Below are positions 7,382 to 57,739 of a stretch of DNA of 60,419 nt, piece by piece; the first letter of the stretch is position 1; each line of letters opens with the position of its first letter. The notes under the pieces are model-generated. The model worked only from the letters and a program-made list of their open reading frames with translations. It did not search any database and was not told the origin of the DNA. This DNA is from Candidatus Woesearchaeota archaeon (GTDB taxonomy: Archaea > Nanobdellota > Nanobdellia > SCGC-AAA011-G17 > JACPIM01). The position numbers were made by a program, and so were the translations under genes. The stretch is taken from positions 1 to 60,419 of the forward strand of contig JACPIM010000019.1 in NCBI GenBank assembly GCA_016188045.1. Direction: 5' to 3'.

Positions 7382-10300
7382 TTGACTAAATTATTAACGA
7401 AACAGGGGCTAAGAATAAATAGGATTTTCTCAAAGGAAGGTGTAGATCCTTTAACAGATGGGATTGAATATGAAATTAGGTCTTCAAAAATAACAGAGCC
7501 AGATGGGACTGTTGTTTTTGAAATGGATAATATAGAAGCTCCAAAATCATGGTCACAATTAGCAGTTGATATTGCTGCATCAAAATATTTCAAAAGAGCT
7601 CTGGTTCCAAATACAGGTAGAGAAATTAGTGTTAAACAGATGGTAACTCGTGTTTCCCATACAATAAAACAATTTGGAGAGGAAAATGATTATTTCTTAT
7701 CAATGGAAGATGCTCAAGCATTTGAAGATGAACTAACGCATTTATTAATAACACAAAAAGGAGCTTTTAATTCTCCTGTTTGGTTCAACTGTGGTCTATT
7801 TCATAAATATGGTATTAAAGGCACAACTTCTGATTCATATTTTTATAATTTAGAAACAAAACAAGTAGAAGAATGTAAAGATTCTTATTCTCATCCGCAG
7901 GTCTCGGCGTGTTTTATACAAAAAATAGAGGATTCACTAAACTCTATTTATGAATTAATAACAAATGAATCAAAGCTTTTTCGTCATGGAAGTGGTACGG
8001 GGACAAATTTCTCAGCATTAAGGGCTGCTGGAGAACCATTATCTGGTGGCGGAAAATCATCTGGATTGATGTCCTACTTAAAAATTTTAGACAGAAGTGC
8101 TGCCGCAGTTAAGTCTGGTGGCATAACTAGAAGAGCTGCAAAGATGGTAATTTTAGATATGGATCATCCAGAAATTGAAGAATTCATATGGTGGAAAGTA
8201 AAAGAAGAAGAAAAAGTTAAGGCATTAATGGCTGCAGGATATCCATCTGATTTTAATGGTGAAGCTTATCAAACAGTTTCAGGCCAAAACTCAAATAATT
8301 CTGTAATGATACCAGATTCTTTTATGGAATCGGTGTTAGAAGACAAGGAATGGAGCACTATAGAAAGAGTTACTGGTAAAATAAGAAAAACCTACAAGAC
8401 TCGTGAACTAATGAAAACAATCTCAGAAGCAGCGTGGCGCTGTGCAGATCCTGGAGTTATGTTTTATGATATGATGAACAAATGGCATACTTGTTCAAAT
8501 ACAGAACATATTCATGCAACTAATCCTTGTTCAGAATATATTTTTATTGATAATACTTCTTGTAACCTCGCAAGTATAAACTTAATGAAATTCATAGATG
8601 AAGAAGGTAATTTTGATATTGATGGATTTAAACATGCTTGTAGAATATTTTTCATAGCCCAGGAAATTTTTGTTGACCTTGCATCGTATCCAACAAAAAG
8701 CATCACACAAAGGACTCATGACTTTAGAACTATTGGATTAGGTTATGCTAACTTAGGTACTCTATTGATGACAGAGGGAATTCCTTATGATTCTGATAAA
8801 GGAAGAGCAATAGCCGCGGCTATAACTGCTATAATGACTGGTCATGCTTATAGAACCTCTGCAGAAATTGCGTCAATAAAAGAACCATTTGCTAGATTTG
8901 AAGAAAATAGAGAACCAATGTTAAAAGTAATGAATTTACATAGAGATGCAGCTTACAAAATAGATGTAAGACATTGTCCAGAGTATCTATTAGAAGCAGC
9001 TAGAGAAGAATGGGATAAAGTAATAGAAGAAGGAGAGAAATGTGGCTTTAGAAATGCTCAAGCTACTGTATTAGCTCCTACTGGTTGTTTAACTGGCAAT
9101 TCATTAATATCTACTGACAAAGGACTTATTAGATTAAAGAGCCTTGGGAATATAAACGGGAACCAATGGCAAGATGTATCTTTCAAAGTTATGACAGATG
9201 AAGGACCAAAAGAAGCAACTAAATTTTATATTAATGGTGAAGCTAAAACTATGAAGATTAGAACTTCATCAGGATATGAAATACAAGGAACAGAAAAACA
9301 TAAATTAAAAGTTTTAGATCAGGAAACTAAAGAATTTATATGGAAAAAGTTCTCTGATATAAAAGAAGGGGACGTAATACCCTTAGCCATGAATACAATA
9401 TTTGGAAAGCAACAAGAAGTTTTATTACCTTTAAAACCAGAACTGCATTGGAATTCTGATTACGAATTAAAAACACCAAATATAATGACAGAATCTCTTG
9501 CCGAACTTGTTGGTTATTTTATGGGTGACGGTAGTTTACATAGTAAAGGATTAAGATTCTGTGTTTCAAATGAAGATAATGATGTAATAGAACATTTAAG
9601 AATATCAATAAAAGAACTATTTAATTTAAACATAAATGTTACTCAATGTCAAGGCTATAAAGAAGTATCTGTTAATTCAGTTCCATTAACAATATGGTGG
9701 GATGCTTGTGGTTTTTCAAAACTAAAACCGACAAAAGACCATTCTGGTAAGGGTTATACTCCATATGTACCAGATGCAATACTTCACACTAACAATAAAG
9801 TTATATATTCTGTATTTTTAAGTGGTTTATTTGAAGCTGACGGTACAGTAACAATAGGAAATCCATCTTTTACAACAGCTAACAAAGAATTCTCCCAAGA
9901 AATAAAAACCTTGCTTTTAACTTTAGGATATCCAACAACCACAAAGACAGATATTTCAGGATGGGGTAATTCAGAAATTTACGTTTTAAGATTAAAAAAT
10001 GTATCTTATAATGCAAAATTTATTAAAGAAATAGGATTCCTTGGTGATAGAAAAACTAATCGTGTTTTTTTAGCAAGAAGTTCACAACCGGGAAATAGGG
10101 ACTACATTCATATTTCGCAGGAATTAGTAGATGAAATCGTTCCAGTAGGAAGTCCGCATAGACATAGCGTATTACTTTCTATACAGAGGAAGGGAGCAAT
10201 TCCAAGAGAAAGAGCTATATTAATATATCAAGATACACATAATAAAAAATTACTTAAGGTATTACACTTTTTTTATGATACAATTGAAAGTAATGTGGAT

Positions 10301-11668
10301 GGTGGAATTCAATCCACTTATGACTTGTCGGTGCCGGGAAATGTAACCTATATTGGTAATGGATTTCTATCCCATAACACCATAGGATTACTTATGGGTT
10401 GCGATACAACAGGGGTTGAACCTGAATTTTCGTTAGTTAAATGGAAAAAACTTGCTGGTGGCGGGTATTTTAAAATTGTTAACAAATCAATTGAAAGAGC
10501 ATTAAGAAAACTTGGTTACTCGGTTGATCAGATTGAAGATATAATAAAATATATTTTGGGATTTGGAACATTGAAAAATGCTCCAAATGTAAGCCCACTG
10601 GAACTAAAGAAATTAGGTTTTTCTGACTCAGATATTAGTGCTGCAGAAGAATATGTAAATAAATTTAGGACCCTAGATGAATATACTCCAAAAATAAATC
10701 CAAAATCACTAAAAGAAAAAGGGTTAACAGATGAGCAAATTCAGAAAGCTAAAATTTACATAGAAGGAGCACAAACAATAGAAGATGCACCACATATACA
10801 ACAAAAGCATTATGCTGTTTTTGACTGCGCGAATAAATGCGGCATTGGAAAAAGATTTATTGCCCCAATGGGTCATGTTAAAATAATGGCCGCAGTTCAA
10901 CCATTTATTTCAGGAGCAATATCTAAAACAGTAAACTTGCCAAATGAAGCTACAGTTGATGATATACAAACAATTTACTTTGAAGCTTGGAGATTGGGAT
11001 TAAAAGCTATTGCTTTGTATAGAGATGGTTGTAAGTTATCCCAGCCACTAAATACCAAATTAGATGAAAATAAGACCGTTTCTAATGGAAACATTATAGA
11101 AAGAGGGATGAGAAAGCCTTTACCTCAAAAACGTAAAGGTTTTGCATTAAAAACAAACATAGCAGGGCATAAACTATTTTTACATACCGGAGAATATGAA
11201 GATGGTAAATTAGGAGAGATTTTTTTGGATATTCACAAAGAAGGAGCAACTTACAGGAGTTTAATGAACTGCTTTGCAATTGCTGTTTCGGTTGGCCTGC
11301 AATATGGCGTTCCTTTAAAGAAATTTGTTGATATGTTCACTTTTACCAAGTTTGAACCACATGGAATGACCGATCATCCAAATATTAAAACCTGTACCTC
11401 AATGATAGATTTTGTTTTTAGGGTTTTAGGAATGGAATACTTGGGAAGAACAGATTTTGTACATGTTAAACCTAAATCAATTGATGAGTTAAGCCTTGAA
11501 GAAAAAGACAAAAAACTAGATAAGTTTATTGAATCAGATAAAGTAAACAAGGATATGGCAGAATTAATGGGCGATGCCCCTCCTTGTGATCTTTGTGGGC
11601 ATATTACTGTGAGGAATGGCGCGTGTTATAAATGCTTAAACTGCGGTAATTCAATGGGTTGTTCTTAA
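7382..11668 (+). CDS. nrdJ: Class II (adenosylcobalamin-dependent) ribonucleotide reductase with intein
   Basis: 1428 residues, of which 431 are an intein, leaving a 997-residue enzyme. The start is TTG at 7382, 6 bases after GAGGTGA. The extein shows F-N-S-P-V-W-F-N-C-G, G-S-G-T-G-T-N, the N-P-C-S-E-Y active-site block, A-P-T-G before the intein and T-I-G-L-L-M-G-C-D-T-T-G after it. The C-terminus has a zinc-ribbon-like C-D-L-C...C-Y-K-C-L-N-C and a terminal cysteine. It reduces ribonucleotides to deoxyribonucleotides with coenzyme B12, independent of oxygen. No cobalamin synthesis genes are in the window, so the cofactor is probably salvaged. nrdR lies upstream and a thioredoxin gene follows after one small gene. 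Confidence 0.95.
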   Translation: MTKLLTKQGLRINRIFSKEGVDPLTDGIEYEIRSSKITEPDGTVVFEMDNIEAPKSWSQLAVDIAASKYFKRALVPNTGREISVKQMVTRVSHTIKQFGEENDYFLSMEDAQAFEDELTHLLITQKGAFNSPVWFNCGLFHKYGIKGTTSDSYFYNLETKQVEECKDSYSHPQVSACFIQKIEDSLNSIYELITNESKLFRHGSGTGTNFSALRAAGEPLSGGGKSSGLMSYLKILDRSAAAVKSGGITRRAAKMVILDMDHPEIEEFIWWKVKEEEKVKALMAAGYPSDFNGEAYQTVSGQNSNNSVMIPDSFMESVLEDKEWSTIERVTGKIRKTYKTRELMKTISEAAWRCADPGVMFYDMMNKWHTCSNTEHIHATNPCSEYIFIDNTSCNLASINLMKFIDEEGNFDIDGFKHACRIFFIAQEIFVDLASYPTKSITQRTHDFRTIGLGYANLGTLLMTEGIPYDSDKGRAIAAAITAIMTGHAYRTSAEIASIKEPFARFEENREPMLKVMNLHRDAAYKIDVRHCPEYLLEAAREEWDKVIEEGEKCGFRNAQATVLAPTGCLTGNSLISTDKGLIRLKSLGNINGNQWQDVSFKVMTDEGPKEATKFYINGEAKTMKIRTSSGYEIQGTEKHKLKVLDQETKEFIWKKFSDIKEGDVIPLAMNTIFGKQQEVLLPLKPELHWNSDYELKTPNIMTESLAELVGYFMGDGSLHSKGLRFCVSNEDNDVIEHLRISIKELFNLNINVTQCQGYKEVSVNSVPLTIWWDACGFSKLKPTKDHSGKGYTPYVPDAILHTNNKVIYSVFLSGLFEADGTVTIGNPSFTTANKEFSQEIKTLLLTLGYPTTTKTDISGWGNSEIYVLRLKNVSYNAKFIKEIGFLGDRKTNRVFLARSSQPGNRDYIHISQELVDEIVPVGSPHRHSVLLSIQRKGAIPRERAILIYQDTHNKKLLKVLHFFYDTIESNVDGGIQSTYDLSVPGNVTYIGNGFLSHNTIGLLMGCDTTGVEPEFSLVKWKKLAGGGYFKIVNKSIERALRKLGYSVDQIEDIIKYILGFGTLKNAPNVSPLELKKLGFSDSDISAAEEYVNKFRTLDEYTPKINPKSLKEKGLTDEQIQKAKIYIEGAQTIEDAPHIQQKHYAVFDCANKCGIGKRFIAPMGHVKIMAAVQPFISGAISKTVNLPNEATVDDIQTIYFEAWRLGLKAIALYRDGCKLSQPLNTKLDENKTVSNGNIIERGMRKPLPQKRKGFALKTNIAGHKLFLHTGEYEDGKLGEIFLDIHKEGATYRSLMNCFAIAVSVGLQYGVPLKKFVDMFTFTKFEPHGMTDHPNIKTCTSMIDFVFRVLGMEYLGRTDFVHVKPKSIDELSLEEKDKKLDKFIESDKVNKDMAELMGDAPPCDLCGHITVRNGACYKCLNCGNSMGCS
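9086..10378 (+). other. NrdJ intein with LAGLIDADG homing endonuclease
   Basis: In-frame insertion of residues 569-999. It begins with Cys (C-L-T-G-N-S-L-I) directly after A-P-T-G and ends G-F-L-S-H-N before Thr+1 of T-I-G-L-L-M-G-C. Splicing motifs are intact: N-terminal Cys, G-T-E-K-H-K-L-K as block B, and the terminal His-Asn. Two DOD motifs, L-V-G-Y-F-M-G-D-G and L-S-G-L-F-E-A-D-G, retain their acidic residues, so both splicing and homing look functional. The insertion point is the conserved substrate/radical-site segment of the reductase, a known hot spot for inteins. Confidence 0.92.
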
Positions 11669-18608: not shown

Positions 18609-19728
18609 ATGAACATAAAAACGCTTAAAAGCGGTCATAAATTTGAGTTATATTTTCCTAATATATATCGCTTTAGAAAAGGAGAGTTCTACAATTAACA
18701 GCTAAAAGAAAAAATCTATTTTCTTGATTAGATTTAATCGGGTAATAAGTATAAGAAAAGAAGTAGAGAAAGAACTAAGCTTAAAAAATAGTGATATAAT
18801 AAATATAGAAATCAAAAAATAAATAACCTAAAAAGGACTAAAAATATTTTCCATAATAATAAAGTGGATTTATTAAGTTTGATACCGGAAACAACTTCTA
18901 GAGGGTATGAGATTATAGTAACCTCTTTTCTAGAAAATAATGGTTTTGGTTAAGATTATGGTATTCCCATTCTATTGGTTCTGGAAGACAATTGATTATT
19001 AGGAGATTTGTAGACATAGACCTGTTTGGTTATCTACTTGGCAATATCAAGCAGAAGGAACAAAAAATACAAATAGGAAATCTAAATACATATTTGAATT
19101 TAAAAATAAAATTATACAAGAACATGTGGATTTGCTAGTTTCATTAGAAGAAATTGGGCTTGACAAAGATAGATTTAGTAGTAGATTTTTTTGCAACAAA
19201 GAAAGTACAAATAATAAGGTATTGAATGAACTCATCAATAAGTTTCATATTAAAACTGGAATAATGCCTTCTATGGCCTTCAGTAAAAATATAAAGGGTA
19301 TTGCTTTTAGTTTGGAAACGAAAAATACTCTCTTTACAGAGATAGTTTTATATTCTCTTAAAAAAATAAAAAACATACTTGTAGAAGATACAAGCTACGA
19401 TGCAAACAAAAAAAGATTAGCTGAAGCTTTTATAGCAAAACTTTTGACCGGCGATGGTAGTATAGAATCAAGAAAACGCTACACTAACAGCATAGATGTA
19501 AGAATAAAAATTGTAGATTCTAATAAAGAGTCATTAAAACAATATAATCAAATTTTGACTAATTTAGGTTTCAATGGGTATATTTATGGTATTGAAACTA
19601 TGGCATATTGCAATATTAAAAAACTCCTCTATCTTCATAAAATATCTGCTTTCAAAAATACAAAAAATTGGGATAAACTAATTAATATAATTAGATTTAT
19701 GAATTACAATAGCGATATATCTATATAA
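18609..19728 (+). pseudogene. Decayed free-standing LAGLIDADG homing endonuclease
   Basis: Pieces in different frames read as one protein: M-N-I-K-T-L-K-S-G-H from 18609 (TAA at 18696), F-L-I-R-F-N-R-V near 18720, V-D-L-L-S-L-I-P-E-T-T-S-R-G-Y near 18865, then W-Y-S-H-S-I-G-S-G-R-Q (about 18958), L-F-G-Y-L-L-G (about 19023), Y-Q-A-E-G-T-K-N (about 19049), and an open segment to 19728. The last segment includes the DOD-like A-E-A-F-I-A-K-L-L-T-G-D-G near 19427. At least three shifts or stops interrupt it, notably near 18940 and 19048. From about 18997 the last frame is open, and GTG at 19126 only looks like a start. The family signature A-E-G-T-K plus G-D-G supports a homing endonuclease. It is not within an intein. 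Confidence 0.72.
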
Positions 19729-27794: not shown

Positions 27795-28841
27795 TTAACA
27801 TAAACGAGAAAAAGGATTATAACCATAAACTTGCCATAGAGATTCGTCGTATTCTATATCAACAATTTGCTTAGGTAAGTCTAGTCTAAATATTCTATTT
27901 GCCTCATTAAAAATCAGATTTTCTAAAAGAGATTCACTTATTCCATTTTCTCTTAATAATTGAATACCTCTTGGCCAGAATGGTAAGGTTGGTATGCCAG
28001 ATGGCGGATTATTTCCTGTTTTTAGTTCATATGGGTGTGGAGCGTGATCTGTTCCTATAATTTGAACTTTGCCACGCAAGACCCTTTCTAATAGGTCGCT
28101 TTGAGTAACTGGATATCTTAATGGCGGATTCATCTTAACTCTGTTACCATTTATTCTATAATCATCAGTATTTAGGAACATATGATGAAAAGTTACTTCT
28201 AGGACAACTTCAAATGGCAATCTTTTTCTTTCTGCTTCAATATAATCTACTGTGTCTGGATTAGATACATGAGCAATGTAAAATACTCCAGTAAAATTAG
28301 CGTCAACTGCATTTCTTATCTGTTTTTGTACTTGAACTAGTTCTGCCTTTGCTGTTTGTCTTACTGAGTGCGTAAATGGTTGACTCGGGTTAAATTTAAC
28401 AGAACTAAATTCTACTTCGTCTTCAAAATGCCCTATAGAAACTCCTGTGTATCCTAATTTTCCTTTTATAATCCAGATTCTTCTTTGTAGATCTGGATCT
28501 AATATTCCCATATTTCCTGTAGAATGCACGTAAAAAGTTTTATCTGATCCAATGCTTTCTTCAGACATTGCAAACCTGAGTGCCTGTTCTACTTTTGTTA
28601 AGTCTGTTGTAAGGCCAATATGAACCCCATGATAAACTCCATCTGAATATCTTCTTGCTTCAGACAATCTTGTCCTTATTTTATCAATGCTTGTTAGTTG
28701 TGGTTTAGGATTTGGTTGTTCTAATAATCCTGCTAGTCCAACTGTTCTTGCATCTTTAAATCCTAGTTCTAGGTAATTTGTTGGATATTCTTCTCCCCTT
28801 AAATGAACATGAGGATCAATTGGTTTGATGTATCTTACCAT
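27795..28841 (-). CDS. Dihydroorotase-like amidohydrolase
   Basis: 348 residues. Metal site I-D-P-H-V-H-L-R at 8-15, a histidine at Y-V-H-S-T near 124, I-A-H-V-S near 189 and the catalytic G-T-D-H-A-P-H near 264-270. These fit dihydroorotase (carbamoyl-aspartate to dihydroorotate). The usual M-P-N-T-x-P-P segment is altered to E-Q-P-N-P-K-P, and no other pyrimidine genes are near, so the substrate is probable but not certain. Confidence 0.78.
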   Translation of the reverse strand: MVRYIKPIDPHVHLRGEEYPTNYLELGFKDARTVGLAGLLEQPNPKPQLTSIDKIRTRLSEARRYSDGVYHGVHIGLTTDLTKVEQALRFAMSEESIGSDKTFYVHSTGNMGILDPDLQRRIWIIKGKLGYTGVSIGHFEDEVEFSSVKFNPSQPFTHSVRQTAKAELVQVQKQIRNAVDANFTGVFYIAHVSNPDTVDYIEAERKRLPFEVVLEVTFHHMFLNTDDYRINGNRVKMNPPLRYPVTQSDLLERVLRGKVQIIGTDHAPHPYELKTGNNPPSGIPTLPFWPRGIQLLRENGISESLLENLIFNEANRIFRLDLPKQIVDIEYDESLWQVYGYNPFSRLC

Positions 28842-30069: not shown

Positions 30070-30154
30070 AAATAGTTTTACAAATTTAATTAGTATAAAA
30101 AGCTTATGCTTAATCAACGAAATAATTAAAAACTTGTTTTCACCATTTATATGC

Positions 30155-31213
30155 ATGGGGTTGTTTGATGGGGTTTTAAAGGATTCTGAAAGTTTGTTTA
30201 AAGAAGAACTTGCTTTGGACTTTGAATATCAGCCCAAATTATTGAAATTCAGGGAGAATGAGCAATTTCAAATAGCTTCTTCAATAAAACCTTTGTTTCA
30301 GAAAAGAAATGGCTGTAATGTTTTTATAACTGGTAAGCCGGGGATAGGAAAAACAGTGGCTACTAAACACGTTTTAACAGAGATTGAACAAGAAACAAAT
30401 GATATATTACCTATTTATGTAAATTGCTGGCAAAAAGACACCTCTTTTAAGATAATATTATCAATTTGTGATTCTATTGGCTATAAATTTACACAAAATA
30501 AGAATACAGACGAGCTTTGGGGTGATGTTTCTAAAATACTGAATAAAAGATCTTCTGTAATAGTTTTGGATGAAATAGATAAAGTTCAGGATTATCATAT
30601 ATTATATTCTTTATTAGAAGATCTGTATAGAAAATCTATTTTGTTAATTACCAATGACAAAGAATTTCTTTCTTCTTTGGATAAAAGAATATTGTCAAGA
30701 TTAATTCCTGAAACTATAGAGTTTAAGCCTTATAATGATAAAGAAACTTATGAAATACTGAAAAATAGAGCTGAAGTTGCACTTGTTAAAAATGTTTTAA
30801 CTGAAGAATCTTTAAGATTAATTTCTGAAAAATCATTTGAAATGAGAGACATAAGGGTTGGGTTGTTTTTGGTAAGAGAAGCGGGGAATATAGCTGAACA
30901 AAGGCTCAAGAAAAAAATTGAGAAAGAAGAGGCTGAAAAAGCTATAGAAAAATTAGCTGATTTTAAAATAAAAAATTCTTCTTCATTGACTGAAGAACAG
31001 GATAAGATTTTAAATTTAATTAAAGAGAATAACGGGAAAACAACTACTGAGATACATAAACTTTTGGAAAATGATATTTCCTACAGGACGTTTTTTAGAA
31101 AATTGAAAGAACTTGAGGAAGGGAACTTGATTTCTATGAAAGAAGAAAATATTGGTCCTGGGAAAAAAACAACAGTTAATTTTGGTTCTACTAAGAAACT
31201 GGATGAATTTTAA
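30155..31213 (+). CDS. Orc1/Cdc6 replication initiator
   Basis: 352 residues from the ATG at 30155 (M-G-L-F-D-G-V-L). AAA+ core: Walker A T-G-K-P-G-I-G-K-T near 59-67, Walker B V-I-V-L-D-E-I-D-K near 140, sensor 1 L-L-I-T-N-D and the R-I-L-S-R-L arginine block. The C-terminal winged helix (about 275-340, T-T-E-I-H-K-L-L...S-Y-R-T-F-F-R-K-L) binds origin DNA. Archaeal origins often lie beside this gene. Confidence 0.93.
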   Translation: MGLFDGVLKDSESLFKEELALDFEYQPKLLKFRENEQFQIASSIKPLFQKRNGCNVFITGKPGIGKTVATKHVLTEIEQETNDILPIYVNCWQKDTSFKIILSICDSIGYKFTQNKNTDELWGDVSKILNKRSSVIVLDEIDKVQDYHILYSLLEDLYRKSILLITNDKEFLSSLDKRILSRLIPETIEFKPYNDKETYEILKNRAEVALVKNVLTEESLRLISEKSFEMRDIRVGLFLVREAGNIAEQRLKKKIEKEEAEKAIEKLADFKIKNSSSLTEEQDKILNLIKENNGKTTTEIHKLLENDISYRTFFRKLKELEEGNLISMKEENIGPGKKTTVNFGSTKKLDEF

Positions 31214-31461: not shown

Positions 31462-32565
31462 ATGGTAGATAAAGATGATTCGCTCGAAAGAAAATTGACA
31501 TATGATGGTGTAGTTCACCATCCTCTTGGGGGAGGATCTTATGTATTCAAACGAAGGTATGTAGAATATTTAGTTAGAAATATTTCTAAAAACAACCTAA
31601 GAATTAGTATTGGCGCACAGCCCAATTCCTCTCCACATTTTGGGACGTTGGTTGTATTTAACTTGGCTTATGTATTAGGACAAAAAATTTCAGAAAGAAT
31701 TGAAACAATCAAACCCGAAATATTTTTTGAGGTAATTGATACCGCACCATCAGAAACAAGAAAAATAGATGGTATTGATTACCAAATCAGTTTAAGGGAT
31801 AGTAAAGTTGCAGATGGCTGTCTTGGAGAATATTTTGAGTTATTAGATTTGCTAAAAAGATTTACTGGAATAGATTACACTGTTAGAAGACAAAGGGGGT
31901 TTAATTCACAACAAGGAATACCCAGGATTCTAAGAAAAATTGTTCAGAACAGAGAGATAATAGCGCCGATTCTTGATCCACAGAATGGACTATTGAGGAT
32001 TAGAGTTGCATGTTCTGATTGTGGTTTAACTGATAAAAATGGGATTAATACTAAATATTATGATGATAAAATAGGATCTTACTGTCCTGAACATGGATGG
32101 TTTGAAACTTATTTTGATGGAGAATCTGAAAAATTTGAATTTAATACTCCGTTAAGAAATCTTGTAAGAGGAATTATTTACGCTGCAGATAATCAAAATG
32201 TGGAGGTTCCATTCGAATGGTTACGGGTAACGGGAAGTGATTATGCAGGATATTATCAAGAACAACTACTTTACAAAGTAGCGTCACTTTTGGGAACTCC
32301 CGCCCATGAATTGCCAACAATTGTTTATGCTCCACTAATCGTTGATTGGTCTGGTGCAAAATTATCTAAATCATTATACGTTAAACAGAATGCTTATAGA
32401 GATCTTCCGCCATATTTAGTTAATTATGGTGAGTTTAGAAATAAACATGGAGAAGCTGGAGTTAAAAAGATGTTTGAAGAAGTTTCTTTATGGTTAGAAG
32501 AGTCATACAAATTATTTAGAAACTATTCAGTATACTATTTTATGGAGCTTTTCAAAAATGACTGA
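31462..32565 (+). CDS. Class I aminoacyl-tRNA synthetase homologue lacking an anticodon domain
   Basis: 367 residues. Class I signatures: S-S-P-H-F-G-T-L (HIGH equivalent, H59-F-G-T62) and G-A-K-L-S-K-S-L (KMSKS equivalent at 300-304). Between them is a zinc-like set C184/C187...C208/H211 and T-G-S-D-Y-A-G-Y-Y near 257-265. The layout resembles the catalytic half of class I LysRS, which is normally ~500+ residues with a C-terminal anticodon-binding cage. Here only ~60 residues follow KMSKS. It overlaps the next gene, an ASCH protein, by 8 bases. It may charge a non-tRNA acceptor or make an aminoacyl-adenylate; function unknown. Confidence 0.72.
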   Translation: MVDKDDSLERKLTYDGVVHHPLGGGSYVFKRRYVEYLVRNISKNNLRISIGAQPNSSPHFGTLVVFNLAYVLGQKISERIETIKPEIFFEVIDTAPSETRKIDGIDYQISLRDSKVADGCLGEYFELLDLLKRFTGIDYTVRRQRGFNSQQGIPRILRKIVQNREIIAPILDPQNGLLRIRVACSDCGLTDKNGINTKYYDDKIGSYCPEHGWFETYFDGESEKFEFNTPLRNLVRGIIYAADNQNVEVPFEWLRVTGSDYAGYYQEQLLYKVASLLGTPAHELPTIVYAPLIVDWSGAKLSKSLYVKQNAYRDLPPYLVNYGEFRNKHGEAGVKKMFEEVSLWLEESYKLFRNYSVYYFMELFKND

Positions 32566-33001
32566 TCAAATGAATCTAGATTTTATGGAACCCAAAGAGG
32601 TTTTTTTAAGCATAAAACCGGAGTTTGTAGAATTATTAGCTACAAGGAAAAAGACGTATGAGTTTAGAAGATATAAGCCTAATGAACCTGTCAAAAGAAT
32701 TTGGCTGTATGTCACAAGACCAGAATGTATGTTAAAATATATTGCTGAAGTTGGAGAACCTGTTGAATATCCAACTCAGATTCCAGAGGATGGCATAGGT
32801 AATTCTGATTTTAATAGTGGGTTGAAAGTATCTAAGTTTGCTTATCCAATATTACATCTTGATGAGTTAATTGAAGGTGTGCCTCTTGATACATTAAGAA
32901 AGCAATTTCATTTTAACCCACCACAAGGTTACATTTATACAGATACATTTCCGGATTTAGTCGAATTTGTCAATGGTTGTGAGATAAGAAGGTTATATTA
33001 A
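32558..33001 (+). CDS. ASCH-domain protein 1
   Basis: 147 residues. S-I-K-P-E-F-V-E-L-L then K-K-T-Y-E-F-R-R at about 18-38 is the ASCH (PUA-like) signature around the K-x-x-E-x-R motif, followed by the strand R-I-W-L-Y-V-T-R-P. The C-terminal half (G-V-P-L-D-T-L-R-K-Q-F) is less typical. ASCH domains bind RNA or act on modified nucleosides. It overlaps the synthetase-like gene by 8 bases and ends 1 base before the second ASCH gene. An alternative start is the M of M-N-L-D-F-M. Confidence 0.75.
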   Translation: MTDQMNLDFMEPKEVFLSIKPEFVELLATRKKTYEFRRYKPNEPVKRIWLYVTRPECMLKYIAEVGEPVEYPTQIPEDGIGNSDFNSGLKVSKFAYPILHLDELIEGVPLDTLRKQFHFNPPQGYIYTDTFPDLVEFVNGCEIRRLY

Positions 33002-33002
33002 A

Positions 33003-33377
33003 ATGCCTAATAAAACTTTTTTCAAAAATTTGAATGAAAGACCATTTAATGCAATAGCAAGTGGACAAAAAAATATTGAAATAAGGGCGAACAAAAATCT
33101 TTTTTCAGAAAATTCTATCAATCTTATCAATGCAGGGGATTTTATAATTTTTAAAAAAGTAGGAAGCAAGGATAAAATAAAGTGTACTGTAGAGCGAAAG
33201 ACGCTTTACAGGACTATTAGGGAGCTTTTAGAAACAGAAGGAACACAACATTCTCTTTCTGGTGCGAATAATATTGAAGAGGGAATTAAGGCTATTGAAT
33301 CTATTGGCAATTATAAAGAGTTAATCGTTAAAAATGGGGTTTTTGCAATTAAAATAAAAGATGTGCAACGAATTTAG
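33003..33377 (+). CDS. ASCH-domain protein 2
   Basis: 124 residues. The complete signature G-Q-K-N-I-E-I-R (G-x-K-x-x-E-x-R, 21-28) is followed by A-G-D-F-I-I-F-K-K, then a T-L-Y-R-T-I-R-E-L-L helix and a final V-F-A-I-K-I strand. It is a distinct ASCH subfamily from the upstream one, so the operon has two different RNA-binding-type folds. The 223 bases after it hold the promoter repeat at 33483 and otherwise nothing recognisable. Confidence 0.78.
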   Translation: MPNKTFFKNLNERPFNAIASGQKNIEIRANKNLFSENSINLINAGDFIIFKKVGSKDKIKCTVERKTLYRTIRELLETEGTQHSLSGANNIEEGIKAIESIGNYKELIVKNGVFAIKIKDVQRI

Positions 33378-55605: not shown

Positions 55606-57048
55606 TTAGTAAGATTTACCTATTCTTACAATGTATTCTGCTGGTTTTTTACACCAAATACAAGTACCTAAACTTTTAGGTTGATCAAATGGGATGTTTA
55701 ATGTTTTTGCTCCTTCTGTTTTTTCTTTAATGTAGTCTTCACATTCTACAGAATTGCACATAGGTGCTTCAGCTATTTTTTTATCTTTTATTGCTTTTTT
55801 TAATTCGTCTAATGTTTTTACTCTTACCAAGCTTTTTTCTACTATATTTTTAGAATTTTGATATAAACTATTTTGAATATTTTCTAGTATTTTTGGTATT
55901 TCTTTTGGTACTTCTGTTTCTTTTATTTGTGTTTTTGAAAGAGTATCTCTTCTTACTATAGTTACCTGTTTTTTTTCTAAATCTTTAGGTCCTATTTCAA
56001 TTCTGATTGGTACGCCTTTCAATTCCCATTCGTTATATTTCCAACCTGGTGTGTACCCTTCTCTGTCATCTAAAATCGGGTCGAATGCTTCTAGCTTTGA
56101 AAATATTTCTTTTGCTTTTTTTAGTATTTTATCTTTATTTTCTTTTATTATTATAGGAATTATTACTATTTTATTTGGAGCTAAATTTGGCGGTAAGACT
56201 AAACCGCGATCATCACTATGTATCGCTATTAAAACGCCAATCATTCTTGTTGTTATAGCCCAAGTATTTTGATAAGCGTATTTTATTTTTTCATCTTTAT
56301 CTAAAAATTTAATATCAAATGCTTTAGCAAAGTTTTGCCCATCATGATGCGAATCTGGGCCCTGGATTGCTTTCCCATTTGGTAAAACTAGTTCTGCTGT
56401 TAAAGTGTATTCTGCTCCTGCAAATTTTTCACTATTTGTTTTTTTACCCAAAAGAGCGTATAAAGCAAAATATTTTTCTAAAATCTCATTATACATATGT
56501 AAAATACCATAAACTTCTTTTTCAGCTTCTTCTTTTGTTGCAAAAACTGTATGTCCTTCATTCCATAAGAACTCGCGAGTTCTTAAAAAAGGAACTGAGT
56601 GCTTGAATTCCCATCTTACTACTGAATTCCATTGATTTATTTTTAATGGCAAATCTCTCCAAGAGCGTATCCATTTTGAGTAAGAATCATACATAATTGT
56701 TTCAGAAGTTGGTCTTACTGCTAATCTTTCTTCCATTTTTGTTGAGCCTGCTTCTGTTACCCATGCAACCTCTGGAGAAAATCCTTTAAAATTCTCTGCT
56801 TCTTTTTTTAGTAATCTTTCTGGTATAAATAAAGGAAAATAAGCGTTTTTAACTCCCATTTTTTTAATTCTTTCATCCACTGCTTCTTTTATTTTCTCCC
56901 AGATCGAATATGAATATGGTCTGAAAACTATGCAACCAGAAACAGCACTATAGTCCGCTAATTCTGCTTTCTGAATAACTTGAGTATACCATTCTGAGAA
57001 ATCTTCTGCTTTTTTTACTGTTAATCCTTGTTCTTTATTTGATTTCAT
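55606..57048 (-). CDS. proS: Prolyl-tRNA synthetase
   Basis: 480 residues from the ATG at 57048 (M-K-S-N-K-E-Q-G); the longer start at 57087 overlaps alaX more. Archaeal/eukaryotic-type ProRS: R-P-T-S-E-T motif 2 region, R-W-E-F-K-H, and a C-terminal zinc domain with C-N-S-V-E-C and C-I-W-C. It charges the tRNA-Pro at 44804. Confidence 0.95.
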   Translation of the reverse strand: MKSNKEQGLTVKKAEDFSEWYTQVIQKAELADYSAVSGCIVFRPYSYSIWEKIKEAVDERIKKMGVKNAYFPLFIPERLLKKEAENFKGFSPEVAWVTEAGSTKMEERLAVRPTSETIMYDSYSKWIRSWRDLPLKINQWNSVVRWEFKHSVPFLRTREFLWNEGHTVFATKEEAEKEVYGILHMYNEILEKYFALYALLGKKTNSEKFAGAEYTLTAELVLPNGKAIQGPDSHHDGQNFAKAFDIKFLDKDEKIKYAYQNTWAITTRMIGVLIAIHSDDRGLVLPPNLAPNKIVIIPIIIKENKDKILKKAKEIFSKLEAFDPILDDREGYTPGWKYNEWELKGVPIRIEIGPKDLEKKQVTIVRRDTLSKTQIKETEVPKEIPKILENIQNSLYQNSKNIVEKSLVRVKTLDELKKAIKDKKIAEAPMCNSVECEDYIKEKTEGAKTLNIPFDQPKSLGTCIWCKKPAEYIVRIGKSY

Positions 57049-57739
57049 AATACAGCCTTCTGTTATTTTTTCCTTTGTTTTCAGCATTTATAAATTCTAA
57101 TGTTCCTATTTCTTTAGTTGAATTAACATGGGTTCCGCCGTCTGCTTGAATATCGAAGTTACCTATTTTTACTAATCTTATATTTTCTATGAAATCCGGC
57201 AGTCCTTTGGCTAATTTTGAAACTTGTGGTATTTTAAAAGCCTCTTCTCTTGTGGTAAATGAAATTGTTATAGGTAACTCTTGTTGAATTATTTGATTTG
57301 CTTCTTCTATGTAGTGTTTAAATTTTTCCTTATCAAAATTTTCTAAAGAAAAATCAATTCTTATCTTATTTATGTCTAACTGATTTCCTGTTATTAATGC
57401 TCCTGTATTCCTATGAATAATTTCAGAAACTATATGGGCTGAGGTATGAGCTTTCATTAAACTATATCTTCTTTCCCAATCAATAATGCCTTTTACTTTA
57501 TCTCCCTGTTTTAAACCTGGTTTGTCTACTTCATGAGAAATATCTTGGCTTAGTTTTTTTACAAATATGACGTTGTAAATTTGATTGTCTTTAATCAGTT
57601 TTCCTGTGTCGTGTGGTTGACCACCGCTGTTAGGGTAAAAAACAGTTTTATCTAGGATTATGAAATTTCCCTCTACTTTAAGAACTGTTGTTTTAAATTC
57701 TTTCAAGTAATGGTCCTTTAAATAAAGTACTTCTGTCAT
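57035..57739 (-). CDS. alaX: AlaX-type trans-editing protein
   Basis: 234 residues. H-T-S-A-H near 97-101 is the H-x3-H zinc motif; the second zinc motif appears as Q-A-D-G-G-T-H near 201-207 with Gln in place of the usual Cys. N-S-G-G-Q-P-H-D-T-G near 37-46 is intact. It clears mischarged Ser- or Gly-tRNA-Ala. Operon with proS, overlap 14 bases. Confidence 0.9.
   Translation of the reverse strand: MTEVLYLKDHYLKEFKTTVLKVEGNFIILDKTVFYPNSGGQPHDTGKLIKDNQIYNVIFVKKLSQDISHEVDKPGLKQGDKVKGIIDWERRYSLMKAHTSAHIVSEIIHRNTGALITGNQLDINKIRIDFSLENFDKEKFKHYIEEANQIIQQELPITISFTTREEAFKIPQVSKLAKGLPDFIENIRLVKIGNFDIQADGGTHVNSTKEIGTLEFINAENKGKNNRRLYYEIK

Follow-up and report, generated by a model that had tools for sequence, protein, structure and literature searches.

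A class I synthetase-like family linked to ASCH-domain proteins in archaea, bacteria, plasmids and phages

Synthetase paralogues are proteins of a known kind: GluQRS, which has no anticodon-binding domain, glutamylates a tRNA base (glutamyl-Q34), and the acceptors of the bacillithiol and mycothiol cysteine ligases BshC and MshC are sugars. From the blasticidin S and mildiomycin gene clusters, a tRNA-dependent aminoacyltransferase, BlsK, is known. Among proteins of the ASCH fold, Escherichia coli YqfB is an N4-acetylcytidine amidohydrolase whose Lys21, Thr24 and Arg26 mutants are inactive. Here, we analyzed a cassette of one class I aminoacyl-tRNA-synthetase-like gene and two ASCH genes in a 60,419-nucleotide stretch of DNA from a Candidatus Woesearchaeota archaeon (contig JACPIM010000019.1; hereafter the window), which is one contig of a 1.02 Mb host assembly that is 92.55% complete. 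The ASCH-coupled family to which the cassette belongs is a new variant among synthetase paralogues. The original prediction, made from the window alone, had not recognized this combination as described, and no paper on it was found in the open-licence literature, to which the search was confined.

A synthetase-like family without an anticodon-binding domain

The first gene of the cassette (31462-32565, forward strand) encodes a protein of 367 amino acids (aa) that lacks an anticodon-binding domain and carries a HIGH-like motif (P58-H59-F60-G61-T62), a KLSKS motif (300-304) and a Cys/His set (C184, C187, C208 and H211). Only 63 residues follow KLSKS, forming helices at 322-346, 348-352 and 357-365 in the structure model. 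The motifs, the Cys/His set and the short tail agree with what had been predicted, and the proposed structure modeling returned a class I synthetase fold for the enzyme and an ASCH fold for the product of the second gene. The HIGH and KMSKS motifs and the predicted Rossmann fold of the catalytic domain place the protein in the class I aminoacyl-tRNA-synthetase superfamily. Although few enzymes are as well charted as the aminoacyl-tRNA synthetases, this family, whose catalytic motifs are conserved, receives no Pfam or NCBIfam name when the window protein is scanned: no Pfam family was matched at E ≤ 1, and GluQRS was the only NCBIfam match (E 0.14). Sequence searches of the PDB returned nothing with the single window protein and only chance-level matches with the family profile. 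Among the relatives listed, most bear the name "hypothetical protein", and a few are annotated either as a tRNA synthetase or as a class I tRNA ligase.

A search with the window protein yielded 532 homologues at E ≤ 1e-3 from 2631 candidates. Among the 120 homologues listed, 117 have PHxG[TS], 116 a KMSKS-like motif and 113 both, so the loss of active-site residues that the original prediction had allowed for does not apply. Length is between 350 and 390 aa in 111 of them, and the median tail past KMSKS is 65 residues, the three longest tails being ASCH fusions. When 34 of these homologues were aligned with the window protein (35 sequences), P58, H59, G61, T62, K300, S302, K303, C184, C187 and C208 were invariant and H211 was at least 90% conserved. 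In a wider superfamily set of 26 sequences, which adds Macrococcus, Pantoea, Streptomyces and deep archaeal members, the invariant residues were Q53, G61, R181, C184, C187, C208, H211, D260, K300 and K303. This pattern suggests strong constraint on the core, which, judged from its sequence, is likely to be catalytically active. Within its own large, unnamed class I synthetase-like family the gene is of full length, and it is not a shortened LysRS copy; "truncated", as it had been called, fits the architecture, from which the anticodon-binding domain is absent, but not the gene.

The family is seen in archaea, Patescibacteria, Bacillota, actinomycetes, plasmids and phages, and is present in 7 of 371 genomes of the host phylum. 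The closest named relatives of the window protein are from Woesearchaeota. In the tree, the window copy and three other Woesearchaeota copies group with three WWE3 (Patescibacteria) copies, apart from other archaeal copies, with a support of 95/95, and most Bacillota copies form one set; long branches meet in this tree. A second, deep-branching group is carried by Streptomyces and relatives (at least 765 proteins homologous to that of phage Picard at E ≤ 1e-3 among the 7996 candidates scored), and a third type comprises 19 proteins at E ≤ 1e-3, Pantoea and Pseudomonas syringae among them. An integrase adjoins the module in phage Picard and in Macrococcus plasmids; the plasmid copies and the integrase-linked phage copy fit with horizontal spread. 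Copies from Picard and from Streptomyces plasmids derive from cultured hosts.

Linkage to ASCH proteins

Both ASCH genes follow on the forward strand, ASCH1 (32558-33001; 147 aa) overlapping the synthetase-like gene by 8 bases and ASCH2 (33003-33377; 124 aa) starting after a 1-base gap, a three-gene layout that an open reading frame (ORF) check confirmed as predicted. The full G-x-K-x-x-E-x-R motif foreseen for the second ASCH protein is present in ASCH2 (K23, E26 and R28), its K, E and R being kept in 18/18 aligned ASCH2 sequences, and ASCH2 exceeds the Pfam ASCH (PF04266) cut-off, with 27.8 vs 21.2 bits. ASCH1 scores 16.1 bits, under that cut-off, but the structure predicted for it is unmistakably of the ASCH type: it combines the beta-barrel with a K32-x-x-E35-x-R37 motif kept in 27/27 aligned ASCH1 sequences, and structure comparison showed a resemblance to the ZmASCH, TRIP4, EVE and YTH base readers. 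Both proteins are thus members of the ASCH superfamily.

Profiles built from adjacent ASCH genes were run over 70 sequence sources. Of the 34 species-genome loci, 32 have at least one ASCH gene near the synthetase-like gene (mostly adjacent) or fused with it; ASCH1 occurs in this way in 31 and an ASCH2-type gene in 22, in some of these on the opposite strand just downstream. The neighborhood survey proposed with the original prediction thus finds the synteny conserved. ASCH1 lies ~2 kb downstream within the same gene string in L013, L015 and L016, and upstream in L007. The profiles matched nothing elsewhere in the 34 genome loci, nor in the 12 loci retrieved with the LysRS model. Of 11 plasmid loci fetched, 10 also have ASCH genes. 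A search of viral contigs with the actinobacterial alignment A7 yielded 10 loci, phage Picard among them, and each has an ASCH gene; when the window protein or alignment A1 served as the query, the viral contigs showed no match.

Fusions link the proteins further. ASCH1 is joined to the C terminus of the synthetase-like core in L019, P0065, P0067 and P0079, and an ASCH2-type domain follows the core in one open frame in L059, L064, L067 and L069, for which public gene tables annotate the ASCH part alone. Distance matrices of the synthetase-like proteins correlated with those of ASCH1 (r = 0.88, 27 loci) and ASCH2 (r = 0.74, 23 loci), values that include the partial copies L017 and L025 and part of which may reflect shared organism phylogeny, as this is not accounted for. 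Some loci are repeats: among the genome loci, L049 of L002, L050 of L004, L051 of L009 and L054 of L032; further, L001 and L048 of the window, and L092 of L060. The fetched set excludes one plasmid hit (H7) and, from the three phage hits, H13 and H15, and many contigs end less than 8 kb from the synthetase-like gene. Nor do the two ASCH profiles capture every ASCH gene: a second one in L029 was missed by them and found by Pfam.

Candidate acceptors and roles of the module

Tentatively, we favor a module in which a synthetase-like enzyme aminoacylates an RNA nucleotide that is read by ASCH. The enzyme would activate an amino acid with ATP to form an aminoacyl-adenylate, the step that the conserved class I core lets us hold most firmly. 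One or two ASCH proteins would bind the acceptor as the base-reading part, replacing the anticodon-binding domain, and the amino acid would pass to a nucleotide within an RNA that is probably a tRNA. GluQRS would be the closest mechanistic model. Such an acceptor accounts for cassettes that stand alone, for the fusions and for the replaced anticodon-binding domain. An RNA or nucleotide modification pathway, as originally suggested, stands as the best reading of the conserved motifs and ASCH synteny, although the role itself is one that we infer.

Several observations weigh against an RNA acceptor read by ASCH. As candidate linked substrates, tRNA genes occurred in 4 of 58 loci, none of them less than 4 kb from the module; the flanks available showed no linked RNA gene, and the window's known tRNA was the only match in an Rfam scan. 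Two genome loci have no ASCH gene: L034, which is uninformative because its contig stops 169 bases past the match, and L009, in which a methyltransferase-like gene (by eye) comes next. ASCH neighbors are also missing from a Pantoea plasmid member and from the distant paralogue L055, whose HIGH-like motif, in the 26-sequence set, has no P-H. Profile comparison of alignment A4 gave signals to LysRS-I (E 9e-4, 243 columns), GluRS (E 4e-4, 37 columns) and CysRS (E 0.14); an assignment to LysRS by sequence was rejected, as the profile signal was weak and not unique to LysRS. TRIP4 ASCH structures bind double-stranded DNA and ASCH1 relatives pair with restriction enzymes at two loci, so that ASCH1 might read DNA. 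Finally, a small nucleoside is the acceptor suggested by the blasticidin-like clusters and by the Pantoea operon.

These clusters consist of a dense string of blasticidin-like genes around the synthetase-ASCH pair in four loci from uncultured Clostridia and Bacilli (L012, L013, L015 and L016), L015 and L016 having been assigned to this type via clustering with L013. L012 and L013 match cytosylglucuronate synthase (TIGR04467; E 6e-44 and 2e-48) and BlsE (TIGR04466; E 5e-42 and 5e-54), respectively; because these scores fall under the strict equivalog cut-offs, the clusters are relatives of known clusters rather than known clusters themselves. The four also hold relatives of CMP N-glycosidases, with an L013 protein matching MilB and BlsM, and of DegT aminotransferases. 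A GNAT/Fem-like protein is found in all four (Acetyltransf_6, 16.4-21.5 bits vs a cut-off of 22), for which a firm Fem-like assignment was rejected on account of these scores and of the PDB search, which gave no meaningful match. If it is a transferase, an aminoacyl-RNA made by the module could be its donor. A MazG-like match in L013 is under both Pfam cut-offs (24.3 vs 27 and 21.7 vs 22). In the same clusters (L013, 454-11482; L015, L016 and L012), the N terminus of an APH-like kinase weakly resembles the ASCH2 profile (E 3e-6 in L012, 0.003 in L013).

Macrococcus plasmids combine the module with two ATP-grasp genes and an MFS exporter, the Pantoea operon includes LOG, a HAM1-like NTPase and an exporter, and MazG adjoins one archaeal copy. 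The archaeal L055 locus (L089, 5826-11183) encodes a radical SAM protein, the paralogue, a CysRS-like protein (412 aa; cysS 325 bits vs a cut-off of 340), a DegT-like protein (by eye) and another radical SAM protein. Taken with the blasticidin-like clusters, these contexts favor nucleoside chemistry. A nucleotide-kinase reading of an AAA_28 neighbor in L064 was rejected, as no PDB match was found for it.

The biosynthetic clusters would be explained better than by an RNA acceptor if the enzyme were a small-molecule ligase similar to MshC or BshC that uses a free nucleoside, nucleotide or nucleobase, probably of the cytosine type, as acceptor for the activated amino acid, while ASCH binds the base of the substrate or product. 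We consider this, the main rival, somewhat less likely than an RNA acceptor. Most loci in the operon list, the window included, show no biosynthetic-cluster genes; the window's cassette stands alone, without a blasticidin-like cluster, and no match to cytosylglucuronate synthase was found in the host genome at its 92.55% completeness. Moreover, the GNAT/Fem-like protein of the four clusters could be the actual transferase. NUDIX genes numbered 3 in 207 kb near the module vs 1 in 311 kb far from it, in a loose count whose pattern missed the MazG of L091, and enrichment of NUDIX/MazG was rejected for too few cases.

An anti-phage or toxin-antitoxin-like module, with ASCH sensing modified bases and RNA or nucleotides being modified on infection, is improbable. 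Consistent with it are the patchy distribution in the host phylum, the copies on plasmids and phages with an integrase beside those of Picard and Macrococcus, and a match of ASCH1 to PADLOC PDC-M11B (E 6e-12). However, PADLOC gave no match for the synthetase-like protein, and the two PDC-M11B-type loci fetched carry SinI-type restriction enzymes, which were not seen beside the cassette. A PADLOC scan of neighbors found single defense genes near some copies (25 of 149 families listed). With the PDC-M11B match as the sole PADLOC link and mixed neighbors, the stress or defense module of the original prediction is so far unsupported, and defense was rejected as the main explanation. At L062 (5214-6396, Enterococcus plasmid, the match being longer than the annotated gene) and L063 (4193-5411, Streptococcus phage), ASCH1-like sequence lies directly 3' of a SinI-family restriction endonuclease gene. 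These pairs are a likely identity of PDC-M11, on which no paper was found in the open-licence literature.

Quite improbable, too, is protection from inhibitors, whether by aminoacylation of nucleoside antibiotics or by alteration of RNA at the target site: the L013 cluster carries a ribosome-protection-type ABC-F gene (NF000355, above cut-off) and the APH-like gene, and copies occur on Streptomyces plasmids and phages, but in most operon-list loci no such genes adjoin the module. Decay of a class I LysRS with neighbors acquired by chance, a possibility raised with the original prediction, is excluded in practice, since despite LysRS-I being the nearest fold in structure comparison and PF01921 matching 4 of the 120 relatives listed (relative L056 reaches 21.9 bits vs a cut-off of 27), the 532 homologues show mostly uniform lengths, mostly kept motifs, conserved synteny and fusions among those examined, and the host encodes its own full-length class II LysRS.

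If active, the family implies a novel aminoacylated RNA or nucleoside whose acceptor would be chosen via ASCH and not by anticodon recognition, and the blasticidin-like clusters in which it occurs offer a specific product to seek. It is possible, if less than probable, that a widespread and undescribed synthetase-like class has exchanged its anticodon-binding domain for base readers of the ASCH type. Such a class would produce a new aminoacylated RNA or nucleoside in archaea, candidate phyla radiation (CPR) bacteria, Firmicutes, actinomycetes and their phages, and would provide the amino-acid-loading step for uncharacterized blasticidin-like antibiotics.

The surroundings of the cassette were also inspected. 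An Orc1/Cdc6-like protein that scores under NCBIfam cut-offs is encoded 248 bases 5' of it (30134-31213), a gene that may mark an origin or mobile replicon; a search for DNA repeats near the cassette found nothing striking. Elsewhere in the window, a ribonucleotide reductase-like ORF of 1428 aa (7382-11668) contains an apparent intein, a block from ...TGCLTGNSLISTDKG to ...GNGFLSHN (by eye), and a short ORF (19126-19728) resembles a free-standing homing endonuclease (by eye). A dihydroorotase-like protein (27795-28841) has NCBIfam matches (E 1.7e-36) and no Pfam family at E ≤ 1. On the reverse strand, an AlaX-like editing protein (57035-57739) overlaps a ProRS-like gene (55606-57087; by eye).

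Comparison with known systems

Class I LysRS (PF01921; PDB 1irx) shares ~11% identity with the window protein, which differs in matching no Pfam family, in lacking the C-terminal anticodon-binding domain and in having ASCH partners instead. PADLOC PDC-M11 is similar in that ASCH1 matches PDC-M11B, but no SinI-type nuclease was found among the scanned window neighbors and no synthetase is annotated in the two SinI loci. ZmASCH (PDB 5guq, 5gus) is a single-strand RNA nuclease; the position aligned with its Lys53 is not conserved in ASCH1, and the part of its description available mentions no synthetase. YqfB has the K-x-x-(T/E)-x-R spacing in common with both ASCH proteins, whereas by motif spacing the position of its nucleophile Thr24 is Glu in 27/27 ASCH1 and 18/18 ASCH2 sequences, and a YqfB-type acyl-cytidine hydrolase was rejected for both because of this replacement.

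For BshC and MshC, we know of no associated ASCH genes, and the window protein had no sequence match to them in the NCBIfam and PDB scans. Nor, to our knowledge, do characterized blasticidin-type clusters contain an ASCH or synthetase-like gene; with the blasticidin S and mildiomycin clusters, the four Firmicute loci share relatives of CMP N-glycosidase, cytosylglucuronate (CGA) synthase, BlsE and DegT. GluQRS has no ASCH partner that we know of, and the window protein reaches 11.5 bits vs the NF004312 cut-off of 453 in NCBIfam. Nevertheless, the two are alike in being stand-alone synthetase cores without an anticodon-binding domain, and 4a91 is among the Foldseek matches of the window protein (E 9e-6).
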